Assembly (NCBI GenBank): GCA_017936665.1
Contig: JAGBFB010000041.1
Span: forward strand, 1-64,000
Reading direction: 5' to 3'
Source: Spirochaetaceae bacterium
GTDB taxonomy: Bacteria; Spirochaetota; Spirochaetia; Treponematales; Treponemataceae
Length of the DNA stretch: 64,000 bases
Made by a program: the position numbers and the translations under genes. Below, one piece after another: positions 1-6,202 of the stretch (the stretch's first letter is position 1; the number at the start of each line of letters is the position of its first letter). The notes beneath the pieces were generated by a model. It had not been told where the DNA came from. It worked only from the letters and a program-made list of their open reading frames with translations, and searched no databases.

Positions 1-544
1 CCTTGAGAGCCTCGCAACGATTTAAAACAGGATTTTCTTTATCTACATTAATATTAATCACTTTTACAGATATTTCAAGAGGAAAGTTTTTATTTTCATC
101 AAGTTTTATGAAGGCATCGGATAACTTCATTTCGCTTTCCGATGGAAAATCTTCTTTTCCGTTGTAAAAAACATAAAATTCTGGAACAGGAATTTTAACT
201 AGTTTACGCTCAAATTTTTCTTTTGGGTTTACGATTTTTTCGTAGATTCTTGCGATGTATTCAAGAAAGCGAAAAGGCATATTTTCGTTGATGGTGGACT
301 GATGTTCAATCATCACCACGATTTTCCCGTCAACTAACATAGCTACATCGTTGTAGTACTTCATATACAAGACTTTTTCAAGCATCACTGGTTGAATTTC
401 CGTAGTTGCGACATCTAAATTTGTTCCGTGTAAGGCATTGTACAGCGAAATAAAATTTTCTTTTGCAGATATGTCGTGAGCGAACAAATCTACAAAAACT
501 GAATCTTTGTAATTGCGACGAGTTGCGTTTTGTGAAACGGTCAT
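1..544 (-). CDS. Rpn-family PD-(D/E)XK nuclease / transposase-like protein, partial
   Basis: Reverse-strand reading frame that starts with ATG at 544 and runs off the left edge still open, so only the N-terminal ~181 residues are present. The protein begins MTVSQNATRRNYKDSVF and contains the block GKIVVMIEHQSTINENMPFR followed by FLEYIARIYEK. That block is typical of the abundant treponemal Rpn / PD-(D/E)XK 'transposase' family, where the E-x-Q of IEHQS is part of the nuclease core. Family members promote recombination and cut DNA, usually in multicopy genomic families. GGAGAG lies a few bases upstream of the ATG. A decayed relative lies at 1896-2124, so these elements bracket the lipoprotein genes. 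The C-terminal half cannot be judged. Confidence 0.8.
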   Translation of the reverse strand, partial: MTVSQNATRRNYKDSVFVDLFAHDISAKENFISLYNALHGTNLDVATTEIQPVMLEKVLYMKYYNDVAMLVDGKIVVMIEHQSTINENMPFRFLEYIARIYEKIVNPKEKFERKLVKIPVPEFYVFYNGKEDFPSESEMKLSDAFIKLDENKNFPLEISVKVININVDKENPVLNRCEALK

Positions 545-824
545 AAATTTCTCTCCAAATAAAATAAATTTTTTTTTGTACATCTTTATTATTGAGAAAA
601 ACTTTCAAAATTTAGCAAAAACTTGGAAAATTTTTTATAAAAAAATCTTTCTTTCGGGGGAAAAGAGCAACAATCTTCGTGAATAGATGCTGAACCAAGT
701 TCAGCATGACAAGAATAAATTTGGCATGATTTTTTCATATCTTGGCAAAAGTAAAAAAAAATTTCAACGAATATTTTAAAGCAATTTTTGTATACTTTTT
801 ACCAAAAATATTTCATTCACCTAC
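545..824. other. Gene-free stretch, very AT-rich
   Basis: Intergenic DNA between the Rpn-like gene and the first lipoprotein promoter. It is dominated by A and T runs. Apart from the short palindrome at 687-707 no coding or RNA gene could be supported. Confidence 0.6.
687..707. repeat. Short palindrome, likely dispersed repeat
   Basis: ATGCTGAAC-CAA-GTTCAGCAT is a perfect 9-bp inverted repeat with a 3-nt loop. It is followed by GACAAG and later by a second GGCATGA. Palindromes of this TGCTGAAC/GTTCAGCA type are common dispersed repeats in many bacteria. There is no T-run after it, so it is not an obvious terminator. Confidence 0.5.
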
Positions 825-852
825 TTGACGGGGGGGGGAATCGTGATATGAT
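825..852 (+). promoter_or_regulatory. Promoter with poly-G tract in the -35/-10 spacer
   Basis: TTGACG at 825-830 and TATGAT at 847-852 are separated by 16 bp. The last base of the -35 box opens a run of nine G (830-838), so about half the spacer is a homopolymer. The two paralogous genes downstream have the same TTGACG box without the G run. A change of one G would move the spacer between 15, 16 and 17 bp and should change promoter strength. Confidence 0.7.
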
Positions 853-919
853 AAATTTAATAGTTTTAGCGTATTTGCATAAAACTTAAAAAAAAACTAA
901 TGGAAAGGGGTCAATTATT

Positions 920-1282
920 ATGAAAAAATTGGCAATTGTTTTAGCAGCATTATTGCTTGCTTGTGTATTTGTTGGATGTGGAGCTGGTAATGTGCTCAAA
1001 AATACAACATGGACTGTGGATAAACCTTGGGGTGGATATGATGTTGTTAAGTTTGAATTTAAAGAAAATGATGCTGTAACATTATATGAAGGAGCACATG
1101 TTACTGATTTGACTTGGTCTTGTGATGGTTTTACTTTGACAATTATGGATGGAGAGGATCTTTATGGTGAATATACAGTGGAATTCTCTGGTAAAGATAA
1201 AATGACTTGGACTCAAACAAAACCAGATGCACATAAAGATGAAGTTCTTACACTCACAAAAGTAGTAGAAGACGCTGAATAA
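920..1282 (+). CDS. Small lipoprotein, tandem family member 1
   Basis: 120 residues. A classic lipoprotein signal peptide runs to FVG-C20, so the mature protein is probably anchored in an envelope membrane. The remainder is a small beta-rich domain with recurrent W/T motifs (NTTW, LTWSCDGFTLTI, KMTWTQ) ending LTLTKVVEDAE. This resembles small lipocalin-like secreted domains of unknown ligand. The Shine-Dalgarno GGAAAGGGG lies 11-19 nt before the ATG. It is the first of three adjacent paralogs sharing signal peptide, GA(G/A)xLL-type linker and a ...DAE C-terminus. It is the only one whose promoter contains a poly-G run, which suggests phase-variable expression. The function is unknown. Confidence 0.85.
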   Translation: MKKLAIVLAALLLACVFVGCGAGNVLKNTTWTVDKPWGGYDVVKFEFKENDAVTLYEGAHVTDLTWSCDGFTLTIMDGEDLYGEYTVEFSGKDKMTWTQTKPDAHKDEVLTLTKVVEDAE

Positions 1283-1339
1283 TCAAATCATAATTCAAGA
1301 ATAACAGAAAATACAACCCCTTCTGATATTCTTAAAATA

Positions 1340-1376
1340 GGCAAGTTTACAACCAATGCAATGTAAACTTGCCGCT
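1340..1376 (+). terminator. Probable terminator after lipoprotein 1
   Basis: GGCAAGTTTACA (1340-1351) pairs perfectly with TGTAAACTTGCC (1362-1373) around a 10-nt loop. The following T-rich sequence starts only about 10 nt later, so termination may be inefficient. Confidence 0.55.
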
Positions 1377-1395
1377 TAAAATTTAATTTTTTCTC

Positions 1396-1424
1396 TTGAC
1401 GGTTTTTATACATAGTCGTATAAT
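1396..1424 (+). promoter_or_regulatory. Promoter of lipoprotein 2
   Basis: TTGACG (1396-1401), a 17-bp spacer and TATAAT (1419-1424) form a near-consensus sigma-70 promoter. The 5' leader that follows carries the hairpin CACCTCT/AGAGGTG around 1434-1450. Confidence 0.75.
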
Positions 1425-1482
1425 AAACATAACACCTCTTGGGAGAGGTGAAATTATAATTTTAAATACAAGGGGTTGTATT

Positions 1483-1857
1483 ATGAAAAAATTAGCTATC
1501 GTAGCATTAGCATTGGTACTTGCTATGACATTTGTTGGATGTGGAGCAGCAAATTTACTTGTTGGAACAAAATGGGATACTAAATTCGGTGAATTGAGTT
1601 ATGCACGTTTTGATTTTCAAAAAGACAATGTTTGCAAATACTATTGGGCTTCAATCGAAAGTGCTGTAAAAAATGAAGAAGTAAAGCCATTAGATTACAC
1701 TTGGACTGCTGAAGGTAATACTCTTACTATCAACACTAAATCAGGTGGTGAATATGGAGTATATGAAGTAGAAATTAAAGGCAATGAAATGACTTGGGTA
1801 AATACAAAAGATGAAAAAGATGTAATTAATCTTACTCGAGTTACAGACGCTGAATAA
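1483..1857 (+). CDS. Small lipoprotein, tandem family member 2
   Basis: 124 residues from the ATG at 1483, preceded by AAGGGG. A longer reading of the frame from 1396 would start inside the -35 box and is rejected. The signal peptide MKKLAIVALALVLAMTFVGC ends in a lipobox with C20. The mature domain keeps the family pattern (GTKWDTKFGEL, YTWTAEGNTLTI, EMTWVNTKDEK) and the C-terminus VTDAE. It is closely related to the genes on both sides and has its own promoter and terminator, so the three are separate transcription units rather than an operon. It is a surface or periplasmic lipoprotein of unknown role. Confidence 0.85.
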   Translation: MKKLAIVALALVLAMTFVGCGAANLLVGTKWDTKFGELSYARFDFQKDNVCKYYWASIESAVKNEEVKPLDYTWTAEGNTLTINTKSGGEYGVYEVEIKGNEMTWVNTKDEKDVINLTRVTDAE

Positions 1858-1883
1858 TCCACATTCATAAAATTATTTAGTAC

Positions 1884-1914
1884 AAAAGCACTCTCTTAGT
1901 AGGGTGCTTTTTTT
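1884..1914. terminator. Terminator after lipoprotein 2
   Basis: AAAAGCACTCTC pairs with TAGGGTGCTTTT across a short loop, followed by a long T run (1908-1921). It is the clear rho-independent terminator of lipoprotein 2. It also marks where the degenerate reverse-strand gene is cut off. Confidence 0.75.
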
Positions 1915-2124
1915 ATTTTTTTTGAATCAATATTTATTTCCAACATTCGTTCAAGAAATTCTTTGCAAATTTCTGCGTTTTGCATAACACGGCCAAACAT
2001 AAAGCCGTTCACTCGGCATCCTTGCCTAGTGAACTTTGCGAATTTTGGTTTTACCAAAATATCGCTCGTGTTATTGTGGTGGCTCATCCTTGAGCCACAG
2101 TTCTTCAATAGGTTTTAGTTTCAT
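1896..2124 (-). pseudogene. Broken N-terminal fragment of an Rpn-like transposase gene
   Basis: From the ATG at 2124 the frame reads MKLKPIEELWLKDEPPQ and then stops. About 75 nt further on, in another frame, come FMFGRVMQNAEICKEFLE and RMLEI, the standard N-terminus of Rpn/PD-(D/E)XK transposase-like proteins. In intact relatives the LKD motif is followed almost directly by FMFGxVMQN. The two halves are therefore separated by inserted or rearranged sequence carrying palindromes. The rest of the gene is missing and the frame ends in the neighbouring terminator. It is non-functional. Confidence 0.7.
2007..2098. repeat. Three consecutive palindromes inside the broken Rpn-like gene
   Basis: Palindrome 1 (2007-2034) is GTTCACT-C-GGCA-TCCT-TGCC-T-AGTGAAC. 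Palindrome 2 (2038-2065) pairs GCGA-ATTTTGGT with ACCAAAAT-A-TCGC around TTT. Palindrome 3 (2079-2098) is GTGGCTCA-TCCT-TGAGCCAC. The first two are each 28 bp. The first and third share the loop TCCT. Together they interrupt the reading frame. They may be a small non-autonomous element, or tandem insertions of one palindromic repeat. Confidence 0.6.
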
Positions 2125-2183
2125 AAATTCTCTCCCAAAAATAAGAGGCAAATAAATCAAAAATTGAAGGACTACTTTTTTTA

Positions 2184-2211
2184 TTGACGATTATTACTTG
2201 CCTAGTATAAA
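2184..2211 (+). promoter_or_regulatory. Promoter of lipoprotein 3
   Basis: TTGACG (2184-2189), a 16-bp spacer and TATAAA (2206-2211). It has the same -35 box as the two upstream paralogs. Confidence 0.65.
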
Positions 2212-2265
2212 ATATAATTACACTAACAATTGGTGTAAAATTTTTTCACTAAAAGGGGTTGTATT

Positions 2266-2670
2266 ATGAAAAAATTAATTGTTGTAGCATTAGCATTGGT
2301 AATTGCTTGTGTTTTTGTTGGATGTGGAGCTGGTGCTCTACTAGAAGGTACTCAGTGGTATGAAGAATATACTAATGACGGAGTTACATACCGAGAGGAC
2401 TGGTCTTTTGAAAAAGATAATGTACTCAAGTTCTCTAAAACAGTTGTAGGTGGTGGAGATGTAAATGATCCTGCAATTGGAGTTTGGCAAGTAAATGATG
2501 GTAACATTTTGGAAATTACTGCCGAAGAAAATGTTACTAAGATTTTAGGAATTGTAGGTACATGGCATATTGATATGGGAACAAAAGATTTATTAACTTT
2601 AACTCGTGTTGTAACAGATTCTAAAAAGAACAATGAAATTACACTTAAACGTGTAAAAGATGCTGAATAA
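2266..2670 (+). CDS. Small lipoprotein, tandem family member 3
   Basis: 134 residues, the longest of the three paralogs. Signal peptide MKKLIVVALALVIACVFVGC with lipobox C20, then GAGALLEGTQW and a beta-rich domain. AAAAGGGG precedes the start codon in the same arrangement as its relatives. The C-terminal part seems to repeat the ending motif: LLTLTRVV appears about 20 residues before the final TLKRVKDAE. It may therefore have gained length by internal duplication of the last strand. No terminator is obvious before the convergent LysR gene. It is an envelope lipoprotein of unknown function. Confidence 0.85.
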   Translation: MKKLIVVALALVIACVFVGCGAGALLEGTQWYEEYTNDGVTYREDWSFEKDNVLKFSKTVVGGGDVNDPAIGVWQVNDGNILEITAEENVTKILGIVGTWHIDMGTKDLLTLTRVVTDSKKNNEITLKRVKDAE

Positions 2671-2685
2671 TCAACATCAATAAAA

Positions 2686-3552
2686 TTATAATATTTCCAT
2701 AAATCTTTTTGCAGCGTGGGAGATGTTGTCGTTATCGAAGGCTAGACTTATTGAACGTAGGTCTAGCTTTTCTTTTATGGGAATGATTTTTAACTCTTGG
2801 TTTTCAAGTTCTTTTGTGATGTACTGTTTAGAGACGCAGATTATCCCCATGTTTTTTTTTGCAAACTCAATTAGAAGGTCAAGGGAAGCCAGTTCAAATT
2901 TTGGTCGAAGCTCCACATTGTAGCGTAAAAGATTTGCGTCTAAGAATTTTCGGGAATGGCTGGCTTTTTCTAATAAAAGTGTGCGATATTTTGTAAGGTC
3001 TGCAAGTTGAGTGATTTTTGAACAGTCAAAATCTTTACTACAAACAAAAAAATCTTCCAGGTTTAAACAATGTCTAAAAGTAAAATGCTGATTTGCAATT
3101 GGTGTGTGAACAAATGCAATATCCACATCATTATTTTTTAGCAAATTCAATGATTCTGTGGTGGTACAGTTTGTTACTCGGTAGCGAATTTTTGGGTAAA
3201 GTTCTTCAAAGGTTTTTAGTTTGTCGATTAGGTAATATTTACAAATTGTGTCAGAAGCACCGATTCTTAAAGTTCCTGTATCTAAAGAACTGATGTTTTG
3301 CAATGTGTGATTGATAGATTCAACTTGTGCAAAAATCGTTTTGCAATAACTAAAAATTTCTTGAGCTTCGTTGGTTAATTTTACGCCTTTTTTTGAACGA
3401 GAAAATAATTTAAAACCTACTTGAGTTTCTAGTGTTATTATGTGTTGACTAATTGCAGGTTGTGAAACATGTAATATTTCTGCTGCTTTTGAGATTTGTC
3501 CAGTTTTTGCAACTTGATAAAAAACTCGTAGTAGGTTTAAATCGGTTATCAT
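2686..3552 (-). CDS. LysR-family transcriptional regulator
   Basis: 288 residues, the usual LysR length. Residues 1-60 form the winged helix-turn-helix (LLRVFYQVAKTGQISKAAE, then LHVSQPAISQHI and VGFKLFSRSKKGVKLT). The remainder is a periplasmic-binding-like effector domain (TGTLRIGASDTICKYYL). The start is supported by AGGAG upstream of the ATG. The ligand is unknown. LysR genes usually control a divergent neighbour. Here the divergent neighbours are two orphan membrane-protein genes and, beyond a copy of the same upstream repeat, the CofE-like gene at 5021, which may be the ancestral target. It converges on lipoprotein 3. Confidence 0.9.
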   Translation of the reverse strand: MITDLNLLRVFYQVAKTGQISKAAEILHVSQPAISQHIITLETQVGFKLFSRSKKGVKLTNEAQEIFSYCKTIFAQVESINHTLQNISSLDTGTLRIGASDTICKYYLIDKLKTFEELYPKIRYRVTNCTTTESLNLLKNNDVDIAFVHTPIANQHFTFRHCLNLEDFFVCSKDFDCSKITQLADLTKYRTLLLEKASHSRKFLDANLLRYNVELRPKFELASLDLLIEFAKKNMGIICVSKQYITKELENQELKIIPIKEKLDLRSISLAFDNDNISHAAKRFMEIL

Positions 3553-3610
3553 ATTTTCTCCTAAATTGCCACACAGATTTGTTCAGGACTAACGTCCTTC
3601 ACGGAATAGT

Positions 3611-3661
3611 ATTATAAGTTTTCATTATATTAAACATAATAAATATATATTTTACTTATAT
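3611..3661. repeat. 51-bp direct repeat, copy 1 (LysR upstream region)
   Basis: This copy matches 4766-4816 at 48 of 51 positions. It begins ATTATAAGTTTT and ends TTTTACTTATAT. The similarity continues leftward through a CACG-AAxAGTA block with an 8-nt gap. It lies where a LysR operator and promoter would be expected. Confidence 0.8.
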
Positions 3662-3753
3662 ACCATTTTTAATGATTATACAATAAAAAAAATCATAAAA
3701 AAAACTTGCATATATATATATAATGAATTAGTTGATTTTTATGGAGAAATGAA

Positions 3754-3975
3754 ATGCTAGTATTTTTATTTATTATTATTATTCCAACAATTTATTTTTT
3801 AATTCAATACAATGTGAATTATTTGGAGTCTGAGACTATTTTATTTTTTTGTGCATATTTTATTACCGCATTAATATTGCTTATAAAAAAGAAGCCTATA
3901 AAAAGTAAGATATTGAATTCTTTATTGTTTGTTATCATCCCTTTTTTAATTGGTGGGCTGGTTTTAACATACTAA
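3754..3975 (+). CDS. Small membrane protein, unknown
   Basis: 73 residues, almost entirely hydrophobic. Three probable membrane helices lie at about residues 2-18, 26-44 and 54-72, with the positively charged loop KKKPIKSK between the second and third. GGAGA precedes the ATG. I do not recognise a family. It is paired with the 213-residue membrane protein downstream, 94 bp away, and both lie between the two 51-bp repeats, so they look like a cassette. It could be a small accessory or immunity-type protein, but nothing in the sequence proves this. Confidence 0.6.
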   Translation: MLVFLFIIIIPTIYFLIQYNVNYLESETILFFCAYFITALILLIKKKPIKSKILNSLLFVIIPFLIGGLVLTY

Positions 3976-4069
3976 AGTAAATGAAAGTAGTTTGAAATAA
4001 GAAATAAAAAATGGTTTCTAAACCAGAAAACACAATTGAAAGTGTAAAACTGAAAATAGAGGTGATATT

Positions 4070-4711
4070 ATGACAGATGAAGAAATTTTAAGGGAATATT
4101 ATAATAATGTATATAATAGTGAAATGTATAAACGCTATAAATCAACTGAATGGGGCTTAATTTTTTTTACAAACAATAAAGCTAGTTCAGAAAAATTTGT
4201 AAAGTTTTCAAAGCTTTTATTATTAGCCACTATATATTATTTTATTTTCCGTATTGCTGATGTAATAGAGTTTAGAGTAGGTAATTTAATTCCTATCGCT
4301 TATATTCTAATTTCCGTTCTTGTTTTATTGATTTCAAAGAAAAAGTTAAAAAAAGCCGAACAGGATCTTGAAACAGCAATATATCATTATCAAAATTCTA
4401 AAAGTGAGTTTGCTCAGTTTAAAAACGAAATATCAGTTCCTCCTATTCCAGCGACTATGGATTGTACAGAAGGTATACAAGAACTCCTTGCTGTTTTCCA
4501 ATCCAAAAGGGCTGATACTTTTAAAGAAGCATTGATAATTTATGAACAAGATTGCCAACATAGAGAACTTGTTCGCCGTCAAAATGCTTTGATTTCAGCA
4601 GCTAATAATGCCCAAAGAGAAGCTGAAGAAGCAAAAAAAGTAGCAGAACAGGCAAAAAGAGATGCTGATTTTGCAAGATGGGATGCAGAGTATCATCGTT
4701 GGAATGATTAA
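4070..4711 (+). CDS. Membrane protein with C-terminal coiled coil, unknown
   Basis: 213 residues. A soluble, tyrosine-rich N-terminus of about 45 residues is followed by two membrane helices (about 52-68 and 76-94). A long helical tail comes next, with a heptad-like Ala/Glu/Lys segment at about 185-205 (AQREAEEAKKVAEQAKRD) and the aromatic end ARWDAEYHRWND. AGAGGTGATATT supplies the ribosome site. No catalytic motif is visible and I do not recognise the family. It is strongly AT-rich and lies within the repeat-flanked cassette with the 73-residue protein. This fits a recently acquired or mobile pair. Confidence 0.65.
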   Translation: MTDEEILREYYNNVYNSEMYKRYKSTEWGLIFFTNNKASSEKFVKFSKLLLLATIYYFIFRIADVIEFRVGNLIPIAYILISVLVLLISKKKLKKAEQDLETAIYHYQNSKSEFAQFKNEISVPPIPATMDCTEGIQELLAVFQSKRADTFKEALIIYEQDCQHRELVRRQNALISAANNAQREAEEAKKVAEQAKRDADFARWDAEYHRWND

Positions 4712-4765
4712 ATATAATTGTATAAAAAATTACGGAAATTGATTTCCACGAAAAAGTACATATTT

Positions 4766-4816
4766 ATTATAAGTTTTATTTATATTAAGCATAATAAATA
4801 TATATTTTACTTATAT
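4766..4816. repeat. 51-bp direct repeat, copy 2
   Basis: Second copy of the sequence at 3611-3661 with three differences, 1155 bp away and in the same orientation. It lies upstream of the CofE-like gene. Confidence 0.8.
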
Positions 4817-4876
4817 CAAGACTTGTGGTATTATAATTCTAAATTGAGAAGGAAAATCATTATATTGTGAAATATT

Positions 4877-4978
4877 GGGTTCTTAGGGTGGAACCCTAAG
4901 CCGTGGCCGAGGAAAGGTGGGGTTTTAGGGGAGGAAAACCAACGGCCTTCGGACTCTGAGTGGGTTTTCCTCCCCTAA
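4877..4978 (+). ncRNA. GC-rich structured leader upstream of the CofE-like gene
   Basis: A perfect 16-bp inverted repeat pairs 4925-4940 with 4963-4978 (arms TTAGGGGAGGAAAACC and its complement) around a GC-rich 22-nt loop. Just upstream, GGGTTC/GAACCC (4877-4882 with 4891-4896) competes with TTAGGG/CCCTAA (4883-4888 with 4894-4899). GGCCG (4905-4909) can reach into the large loop to CGGCC (4943-4947). The fold ends about 40 nt before the start codon. No T-run follows it, so it is not a simple terminator. It is either an unrecognised cis-regulatory RNA or a dispersed hairpin repeat. It matches no riboswitch I know. Confidence 0.5.
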
Positions 4979-5020
4979 TAGTTTCCCAGCTTTTCAAAGC
5001 TGAAAGTGTGAGGTGAAAAG

Positions 5021-6202
5021 ATGAAATATAGTGGAACAATTTCTAGAGGTGTTAGAACTCCAATTATCAAGATGGGAGATGATTTAGCATCTATCGTTGT
5101 GGATTCAGTTGGAAAATGTGTTGAAGAAGCTGGAATTGAGCTTCAGGATAAAGATGTTATTGCTATTACAGAAGCTGTTGTTGGAATTTCTCAAGGAAAC
5201 TACGCAACTGCTGACCAAATTGCAAAAGATGTTTCTAGCAAATTTGGGGATGAAACTGTAGGGTTAATTTTCCCAATTATGAGCCGCAATCGTTTTTCTA
5301 TGCTTTTGAAAGGAATTTCTCGTGGTTGTAAAAAACTTGTTATTCAACTTTCATATCCTGGAGATGAAGTTGGAAATCACTTGATTTCAGAAGATGCTCT
5401 TTTTGATTCTGGGGTAAATCCTTATTCTGATGTTTTTACTGCTGATGAATTTCATAAAATTTTCCCAAATACAATTCATCAATTCACTGGTGTTGATTAT
5501 ATCGAATTTTACAAAGAAACTTGCGAATGTCCTTGCGAAATCATTTTGGCAAATGATCCAAAAGCAATTTTGAAATATACTGATAACGTAATTGTGGCTT
5601 CTATCCACAAGCGAAAAAGAGATAAAAAACTTTTACAACAAGCTGGGGTAAAAAAAGTTTACTGCCTAGACGAAATTTTAACTGAATCTGTTGATGGTTC
5701 TGGTTACAATGAAAACTTTGGGCTTCTTGGCTCAAATCTTGCAACTGAAAATTCTGTAAAATTGTTCCCAAGAAATTGTCAGCCTCTAGTTGAAGATGTT
5801 CAATCTCGCATCAAAGCAAAATACGGCAAAAATGTAGAAGTTATGGTTTATGGCGACGGTGCTTTCAAAGACCCACAAGGACAAATCTGGGAATTGGCTG
5901 ATCCTGTTGTTTCTCCTGCTTTTACAAGTGGCTTGGTAGGAACTCCAAACGAATTAAAACTAAAATATCTTTCAGATAACGAATTCAAAGACTTGTCTGG
6001 GGAAGAATTAAGAGAAGCTATGATTAAAAGAATCAAGGAAAAAGATTCTAACTTGGTTGGAAGAATGGAAACACAGGGAACAACTCCTCGTCAGTTGACA
6101 GATTTGCTTGGTTCTTTAAGCGATTTAACTTCTGGCTCTGGAGACAAGGGAACACCTGTTATCTTAATTCAAAACTATTTTACAAACTACGCTAATCAGT
6201 AA
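5021..6202 (+). CDS. CofE-like (coenzyme F420-0:L-glutamate ligase family) protein
   Basis: 393 residues. The first ~120 residues carry the CofE pattern (KDVIAITEAVVGISQGNY, where a canonical F420 ligase has a similar TxKIVSxAEG strand). Later blocks are SGYNENFGLLGSN and a GDGAFKDPQG loop in place of the usual nucleotide and metal site. In archaea and actinobacteria CofE adds glutamate to F420-0 with GTP. Spirochaetes are not known to make F420 and no other F420 gene is in the window, so the true substrate is unknown. It is probably another gamma-glutamyl-type ligation. GTGAGGTGAAAAG precedes the ATG. It is a single-gene unit with a terminator just after. Confidence 0.7.
   Translation: MKYSGTISRGVRTPIIKMGDDLASIVVDSVGKCVEEAGIELQDKDVIAITEAVVGISQGNYATADQIAKDVSSKFGDETVGLIFPIMSRNRFSMLLKGISRGCKKLVIQLSYPGDEVGNHLISEDALFDSGVNPYSDVFTADEFHKIFPNTIHQFTGVDYIEFYKETCECPCEIILANDPKAILKYTDNVIVASIHKRKRDKKLLQQAGVKKVYCLDEILTESVDGSGYNENFGLLGSNLATENSVKLFPRNCQPLVEDVQSRIKAKYGKNVEVMVYGDGAFKDPQGQIWELADPVVSPAFTSGLVGTPNELKLKYLSDNEFKDLSGEELREAMIKRIKEKDSNLVGRMETQGTTPRQLTDLLGSLSDLTSGSGDKGTPVILIQNYFTNYANQ

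Follow-up and report, generated by a model that had tools for sequence, protein, structure and literature searches.

What does an uninterrupted run of nine G do in the promoter spacer of a lipoprotein gene, and does it concern that gene only or a larger set? The question is raised by a locus near the beginning of a 64,000-nucleotide stretch of DNA (hereafter the window), which is the start of contig C31 in a genome of 2,584,639 bases (2.58 Mb) and 43 contigs, referred to as G000. On the forward strand, a -35 hexamer TTGACG (825 to 830), whose final base doubles as the opening G of the run, leads into the G9 tract (830 to 838), the proposed slippage site; the 16-bp spacer consists of eight G and AATCGTGA, followed by TATGAT at 847 to 852, which forms an extended -10 element (844 to 852) with TG at 844 to 845 and the intervening A. 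An earlier note on this DNA had described the run as filling half of the 16-bp spacer between TTGACG and TATGAT, and re-measurement of coordinates and spacer confirmed this in detail. Comparison of tract promoters (see below) further delimits a CCTAC box (820 to 824) adjoining the -35 on its upstream side. Downstream are a weak 5'-UTR hairpin (862 to 886) pairing AGTTTTA (862 to 868) with TAAAACT (880 to 886) (z -0.9, not significant), a ribosome-binding site recognized by eye, GGAAAGGGG (902 to 910), and the ATG at 920 that opens the lipoprotein gene; an Rfam search of window positions 1 to 6000 gave no match at gathering thresholds. The G9 tract is the sole run of more than five G or C in the 64-kb window, for which dinucleotide shuffles predict 0.04 occurrences of the eight-G pattern.

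The focal gene (920 to 1282, forward strand) encodes a 120-aa lipoprotein with the lipobox FVGC (cysteine 20) and a predicted lipocalin-like barrel, and is followed on the same strand by two paralogous lipoprotein genes, paralogue 2 (1483 to 1857) and paralogue 3 (2266 to 2670). That both paralogues possess TTGACG but no run, as had also been remarked, holds true: the tract-free promoter of paralogue 2 (1396 to 1424) combines TTGACG, 17 bp and TATAAT, and that of paralogue 3 (2184 to 2213) combines TTGACG (2184 to 2189) with either TATAAA at 16 bp or TAAAAT at 18 bp. These paralogues would be steadily expressed companions of the focal gene. A Pfam scan of the 120-aa protein returned nothing above cut-off, Lipocalin_4 (PF13648) included; this family is matched at 2.9e-6 by paralogue 2, 48% identical to the focal product, and also by two other genes with tract promoters. 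The three window paralogues are modelled by AlphaFold2 as an eight-stranded barrel (mean pLDDT 82), for which the best solved structures found by Foldseek are mostly lipocalins (E 0.01-0.02, with zero matches at E below 0.001). A ligand-binding envelope lipoprotein would thus far be a fair guess, no more, at the nature of the product.

Is the arrangement peculiar to this gene? In G000, TTGAC followed by at least five G occurs 19 times (once, at C18:76790, with G5 only), versus 0 for the reversed pattern. If a promoter-type tract is defined as an unbroken run of at least seven G (runs of 7 to 10 were found) that begins immediately after TTGAC or one base further on, the genome holds 20 of them on 14 contigs, namely one G7, eight G8, ten G9 and one G10. 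With the search limited to 14-19 bp from the -35 and boxes taken as consensus matches, every one of the 20 has a -10-like box, at a spacer of 16 bp in 14 promoters, 15 bp in four and 17 bp in two, and the TG extension is present in 13. The motif [CA]TA[CG] stands immediately before TTGAC in 19 of the 20, and is absent from all 15 promoter-like TTGAC sites without a tract that were collected from the window and the retrieved stretches; the cassette consensus reads [CA]TA[CG]-TTGAC-G7..10-n7..9-TAnnnT. According to a fixed lipobox rule, a lipoprotein start follows within 250 bp in 19 of the 20 tract promoters; the product of the twentieth (C41:29298) fails the rule, with LFCITGC seen by eye. The same rule selects 9 of the 57 window genes, or 8 of 56 once the focal gene is set aside (Fisher p 1e-10 against the tract genes).

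A side tract with a degenerate -35 (C22:20083) likewise has a lipoprotein gene behind it. Elsewhere in the genome, a G10 at C22:540-549 (L025) takes up the 3' portion of a long spacer (TTGACA ... G10 CATAAT), and the ORF downstream of it opens with a double-glycine leader-like start (MQVNGG); at C8:52388-52396 (L022) CCTAGT is followed by G9, with TGAC missing and a non-lipoprotein ORF downstream; the latter tract may be a decayed cassette. The 5'-UTR hairpin was considered as a defining part of the arrangement and dropped, z being below -1.5 in 7 of the 20 scored tract genes (mean -1.1; a 21st UTR was too short) and -0.9 for the focal gene. Hairpins placed directly upstream of the ribosome-binding site, with non-matching arm sequences, were noted in the 5' UTRs of the tract genes at L076, L081, L029, L016, L072 and L024.

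Counted on both strands of G000, exact G-run lengths comprise 13 G6, one G7, 12 G8, 20 G9 and three G10. As a random sequence would show a steady fall with length, the gap at seven and the peak at nine indicate that long runs are kept. Runs of at least seven G amount to 36, of which 20 lie in promoters. Across these 20, tract length is negatively correlated with the rest of the spacer (r -0.61, permutation p 0.006), as would follow from selection on the total spacing; the correlation drops to r -0.20 when -10 boxes are picked without a distance limit, and selection for constancy of the spacing is only moderately supported. Judging from sequence, the best explanation, and a probable one, is slipped-strand phase variation of a set of lipoproteins, with the G run located in the spacers of sigma-70-type promoters. 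DNA polymerase would slip on the G9 tract in living cells, adding or removing a single G; the distance between -35 and -10 (now 16 bp) would thereby shift one base at a time, and the transcription rate of the lipoprotein gene would be altered. With about 20 scattered lipoprotein genes on one cassette, a population could contain many combinations of expression levels, of proteins that may be exposed at the surface and may confer an adaptive benefit. Because a one-base change of the spacer would take place next to an extended -10 element, graded output is predicted and not a strict on/off response, so that control is best read as more of a rheostat than a switch.

The earlier note had invoked promoter-spacer slippage for a lipoprotein that switches on and off. 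Phase variation by slippage in the spacer stands as the best-supported reading, but its unit is about 20 lipoprotein promoters together with tracts located within reading frames, not one gene, and the extended -10 favors graded output over the proposed switching; the lipoprotein may nonetheless be turned fully on and off, and may have an antigenic role. The comparison with Treponema pallidum made there was sound: in TP0126, an OmpW homologue, the -35 and -10 boxes flank a poly-G tract, and a spacing of 17 bp gives the best transcription (PMC7864442). Relative to this optimum, two of the 20 promoters of G000 are at 17 bp, 14 (the focal one included) are one base short, and four are two bases short. 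Two other candidate mechanisms were discarded. Transcriptional slippage was rejected, the run being upstream of the expected start site. An intramolecular quadruplex is built from four separate G tracts, and G-quadruplex switching was set aside, since a single G9 run does not provide them.

Could the run be a fixed site rather than a variable one? The G run and the upstream box would then be bound by an activator, a repressor or a special sigma factor, and the genes would form a co-regulated regulon with a constant run length and no switching. Although unlikely, this possibility agrees with the near-uniform G8-G9 lengths, the fixed position, the [CA]TA[CG] box common to 19 of the 20 promoters (a box that is unnecessary for a pure spacer model), and the fact that a CRP homologue also acts at the T. 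pallidum poly-G tpr promoters (PMC10118025). The narrow lengths (18 of the 20 being G8 or G9) fit a held length too. However, a protein site should tolerate substitutions, yet a two-mismatch search of G000 returned no promoter with a run interrupted by one other base (twice-broken runs were found at three sites, versus eight reversed-control matches). The twin promoters of tandem lipoprotein genes on C18, identical over 31 bp upstream and 91 bp downstream of the run, differ by one G within it (G8 versus G9), which is at odds with a constant length. Runs of equal length are also found inside reading frames: seven of the other 16 tracts lie in long ORFs, three of them in register and the remaining four (C1:3875, C1:6880, C13:5382 and C7:180557) out of register as assembled here, as expected of unstable runs. 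Moreover, tract promoters of other taxa have the run without the upstream box.

Four of these seven ORF tracts are a G9 or G10 inside a large lipoprotein gene, soon after the lipobox, at C7:180557, C7:209760, C17:34425 and C29:2576 (L020, L021, L023 and L028), one of the four being out of register. A G8 at C22:83923-83930 (L080) closes an ORF that resembles a sensor kinase, and a gene resembling a DNA cytosine methylase follows about 110 bp further on.

Another possibility, very unlikely, is that recent duplication spread one promoter together with its lipoprotein gene, the run itself being functionless. The 21 products considered (those of the 20 tract genes and of the gene behind C22:20083) do include one cluster of 10 members and a pair that is a tandem duplicate, but they form eight sequence clusters in all, some links of which depend on the N-terminal part only, and the 20 main sites are dispersed over 14 contigs. 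The run is absent from the close paralogues in the window, promoters of a similar kind arose in unrelated phyla, and comparison of the tract promoters of G000 suggests that the run and the -35 were retained where the remaining upstream region diverged, all of which argues against such a spread. Pfam matches above cut-off among the tract products comprise Lipocalin_4, TRL, OmpA, CotH, FGE-sulfatase with Listeria-Bacteroides repeats, and DUF6567; the diversity of matches and clusters indicates a cassette common to several kinds of lipoprotein genes. Among the tract genes scanned, that of the window included, no Pfam match to OmpW (the family of TP0126) or to Tpr was found. Finally, it is extremely improbable that the run lengths result from mistakes of sequencing or assembly. 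Homopolymers are error-prone; for one G tract a reference length unlike the culture majority has been reported, as have anomalous Illumina reads across G tracts (PMC9187656); and one-base errors could account both for the G8 and G9 of the twin promoters and for the ORFs that are out of register. Such errors do not, however, produce the inverted genome-wide length distribution, the placement of runs in promoters or their link to lipoproteins.

Slippage in promoter spacers, the reading preferred here, would best be seen as working like TP0126 on a genome scale. As in T. pallidum TP0126 and tpr E, G, J and L, a poly-G tract of about 8-10 is found in the promoter of a gene for an envelope protein, here a predicted one; in contrast to them, about 20 promoters share one cassette in which the run is fused to TTGAC, and the genes behind them all encode lipoproteins, from several families. 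In the Vlp system of Mycoplasma hyorhinis, the repeat is a poly-A tract between -35 and -10. Several lipoprotein genes of that system each have their own variable promoter, giving combinatorial surfaces (PMC11868660; PMC4198240), a likeness to the candidate slippage-prone promoters described here, whereas the Vlp genes form one paralogous cluster and those of G000 are scattered, belong to several families, and use G in place of A. Among gut commensals, G-tract slippage has been documented for bbr_0113 and bbr_1889 of Bifidobacterium breve, with changes seen in mice (PMC9187656); the tracts studied lie inside pilus-gene reading frames, promoter-spacer G tracts are mentioned in one sentence, and the consulted part of that paper describes no lipoprotein promoter set, unlike here. 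Similarly, the 29 loci of Campylobacter jejuni NCTC11168 with poly-G/C runs of seven or more (PMC4965091) are close in number to the 36 runs of G000, but mainly switch reading frames, while 20 of the 36 runs here are in promoters. Tracts inside coding genes have been treated more generally (PMC2831843). A literature search by title and start of abstract, with most subscription journals outside its reach, retrieved no genome-wide set of lipoprotein genes with poly-G in promoter spacers.

To what extent does this design occur in other bacteria? A wide scan for TTGACG8-n3..7-TGATA, with one genome per species and 84,980 species (records near the window being possibly omitted), yielded 56 stretches, mostly from gut Clostridia and Bacilli, along with Kiritimatiellota-type, spirochaete and other records; several single matches in GC-rich genomes are probably due to chance. 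In 14 genomes searched whole, the promoter pattern was present in all 14 and at least twice in 11, with reversed controls at zero; as these genomes were chosen from scan matches, one match was expected in each and a second was not. The pattern also occurs in 17 of the 74 genomes of the family to which Pumilibacter muris belongs, with at most five matches each and controls at zero. The 56 stretches carry 57 sites; for 43 of them, an ORF that has a ribosome-binding site lies no more than 300 bp away. Near copies from one genome being counted singly, 19 of these 43 tract ORFs are lipoprotein-like, versus 15 of the 404 remaining ORFs on those stretches (p 5e-13), a test that somewhat favors the tract set since several start codons were allowed for tract ORFs and only the first for controls; lipoprotein-like or signal/TM-like starts taken together are found in 30 of 43 versus 53 of 404.

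In an uncultured member of the Clostridia from rabbit gut (Lapin-026 bin107), eight near-identical TTGAC-G8/9/10-TATGATATACT promoters occur in one genome (L085, L086, L092, L097, L122, L124, L129 and L137), and those with room downstream lead to large lipoproteins opening with MKGKKRIS. Spirochaetaceae bacterium Cf509_bin6 (L140-L145) has six TTGAC-G12/13 promoters, of which the sixth is at a contig end; the other five precede genes with signal-peptide-like starts, the products of which resemble outer-membrane or exported proteins.

Does TTGAC-polyG-TGnTA then represent a general, repeatedly evolved device to diversify the lipoprotein coat of host-associated bacteria in several phyla, giving access to very many surface states without recombinases or invertible DNA? 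We regard the chances for and against as evenly balanced. The scope of such a device, for which the balance is just as even, would run from about 20 independent rheostats here to eight in the rabbit-gut Clostridia, and up to five per genome in the Pumilibacter family, and would include outer-membrane-type proteins in a spirochaete of the termite-gut type. If this is true, a simple and mutable type of promoter, known for a few genes of the syphilis agent, controls an entire repertoire of lipoproteins in a treponeme other than that agent and reappears in gut bacteria unrelated to it, adding a promoter-based, recombinase-free layer to the surface variation of gut microbes, a field in which invertible promoters have dominated the work.

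Among closer relatives, the pattern TTGACG8-n5..10-TAnnnT was found in 7 of 274 genomes of the family, with reversed controls at zero throughout: 18 matches in G000 (at least one site being counted twice) and a single one in each of six others. The genus of G000 is probably Treponema-like, a 'Treponema brennaborense' record carrying the G015 site. The two other genomes of the genus have zero matches to this pattern, and in one of them (G001) a homologue has a tract-free promoter (TTGACA, 17 bp, TATAAT). On this distribution, the G000 lineage seems to be where the cassette originated or multiplied. A family scan for G8 before TATNAT was noisy, reversed-control matches equalling real ones in many genomes; apart from some genomes of genera g20 and g15, none rises above this background. 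A different poly-G promoter was observed in some genomes of other genera (L150-L168, in G054, G055, G056, G058, G059 and G062), with 12-17 G at or adjoining TATTAT/TATAAT, often in the arrangement TCTTGACtttTgA-polyG-TATTATGGAAG, and with lipoprotein genes downstream of some of them; other sites of this group read as promoters of the opposite strand, with poly-C directly after the -10.
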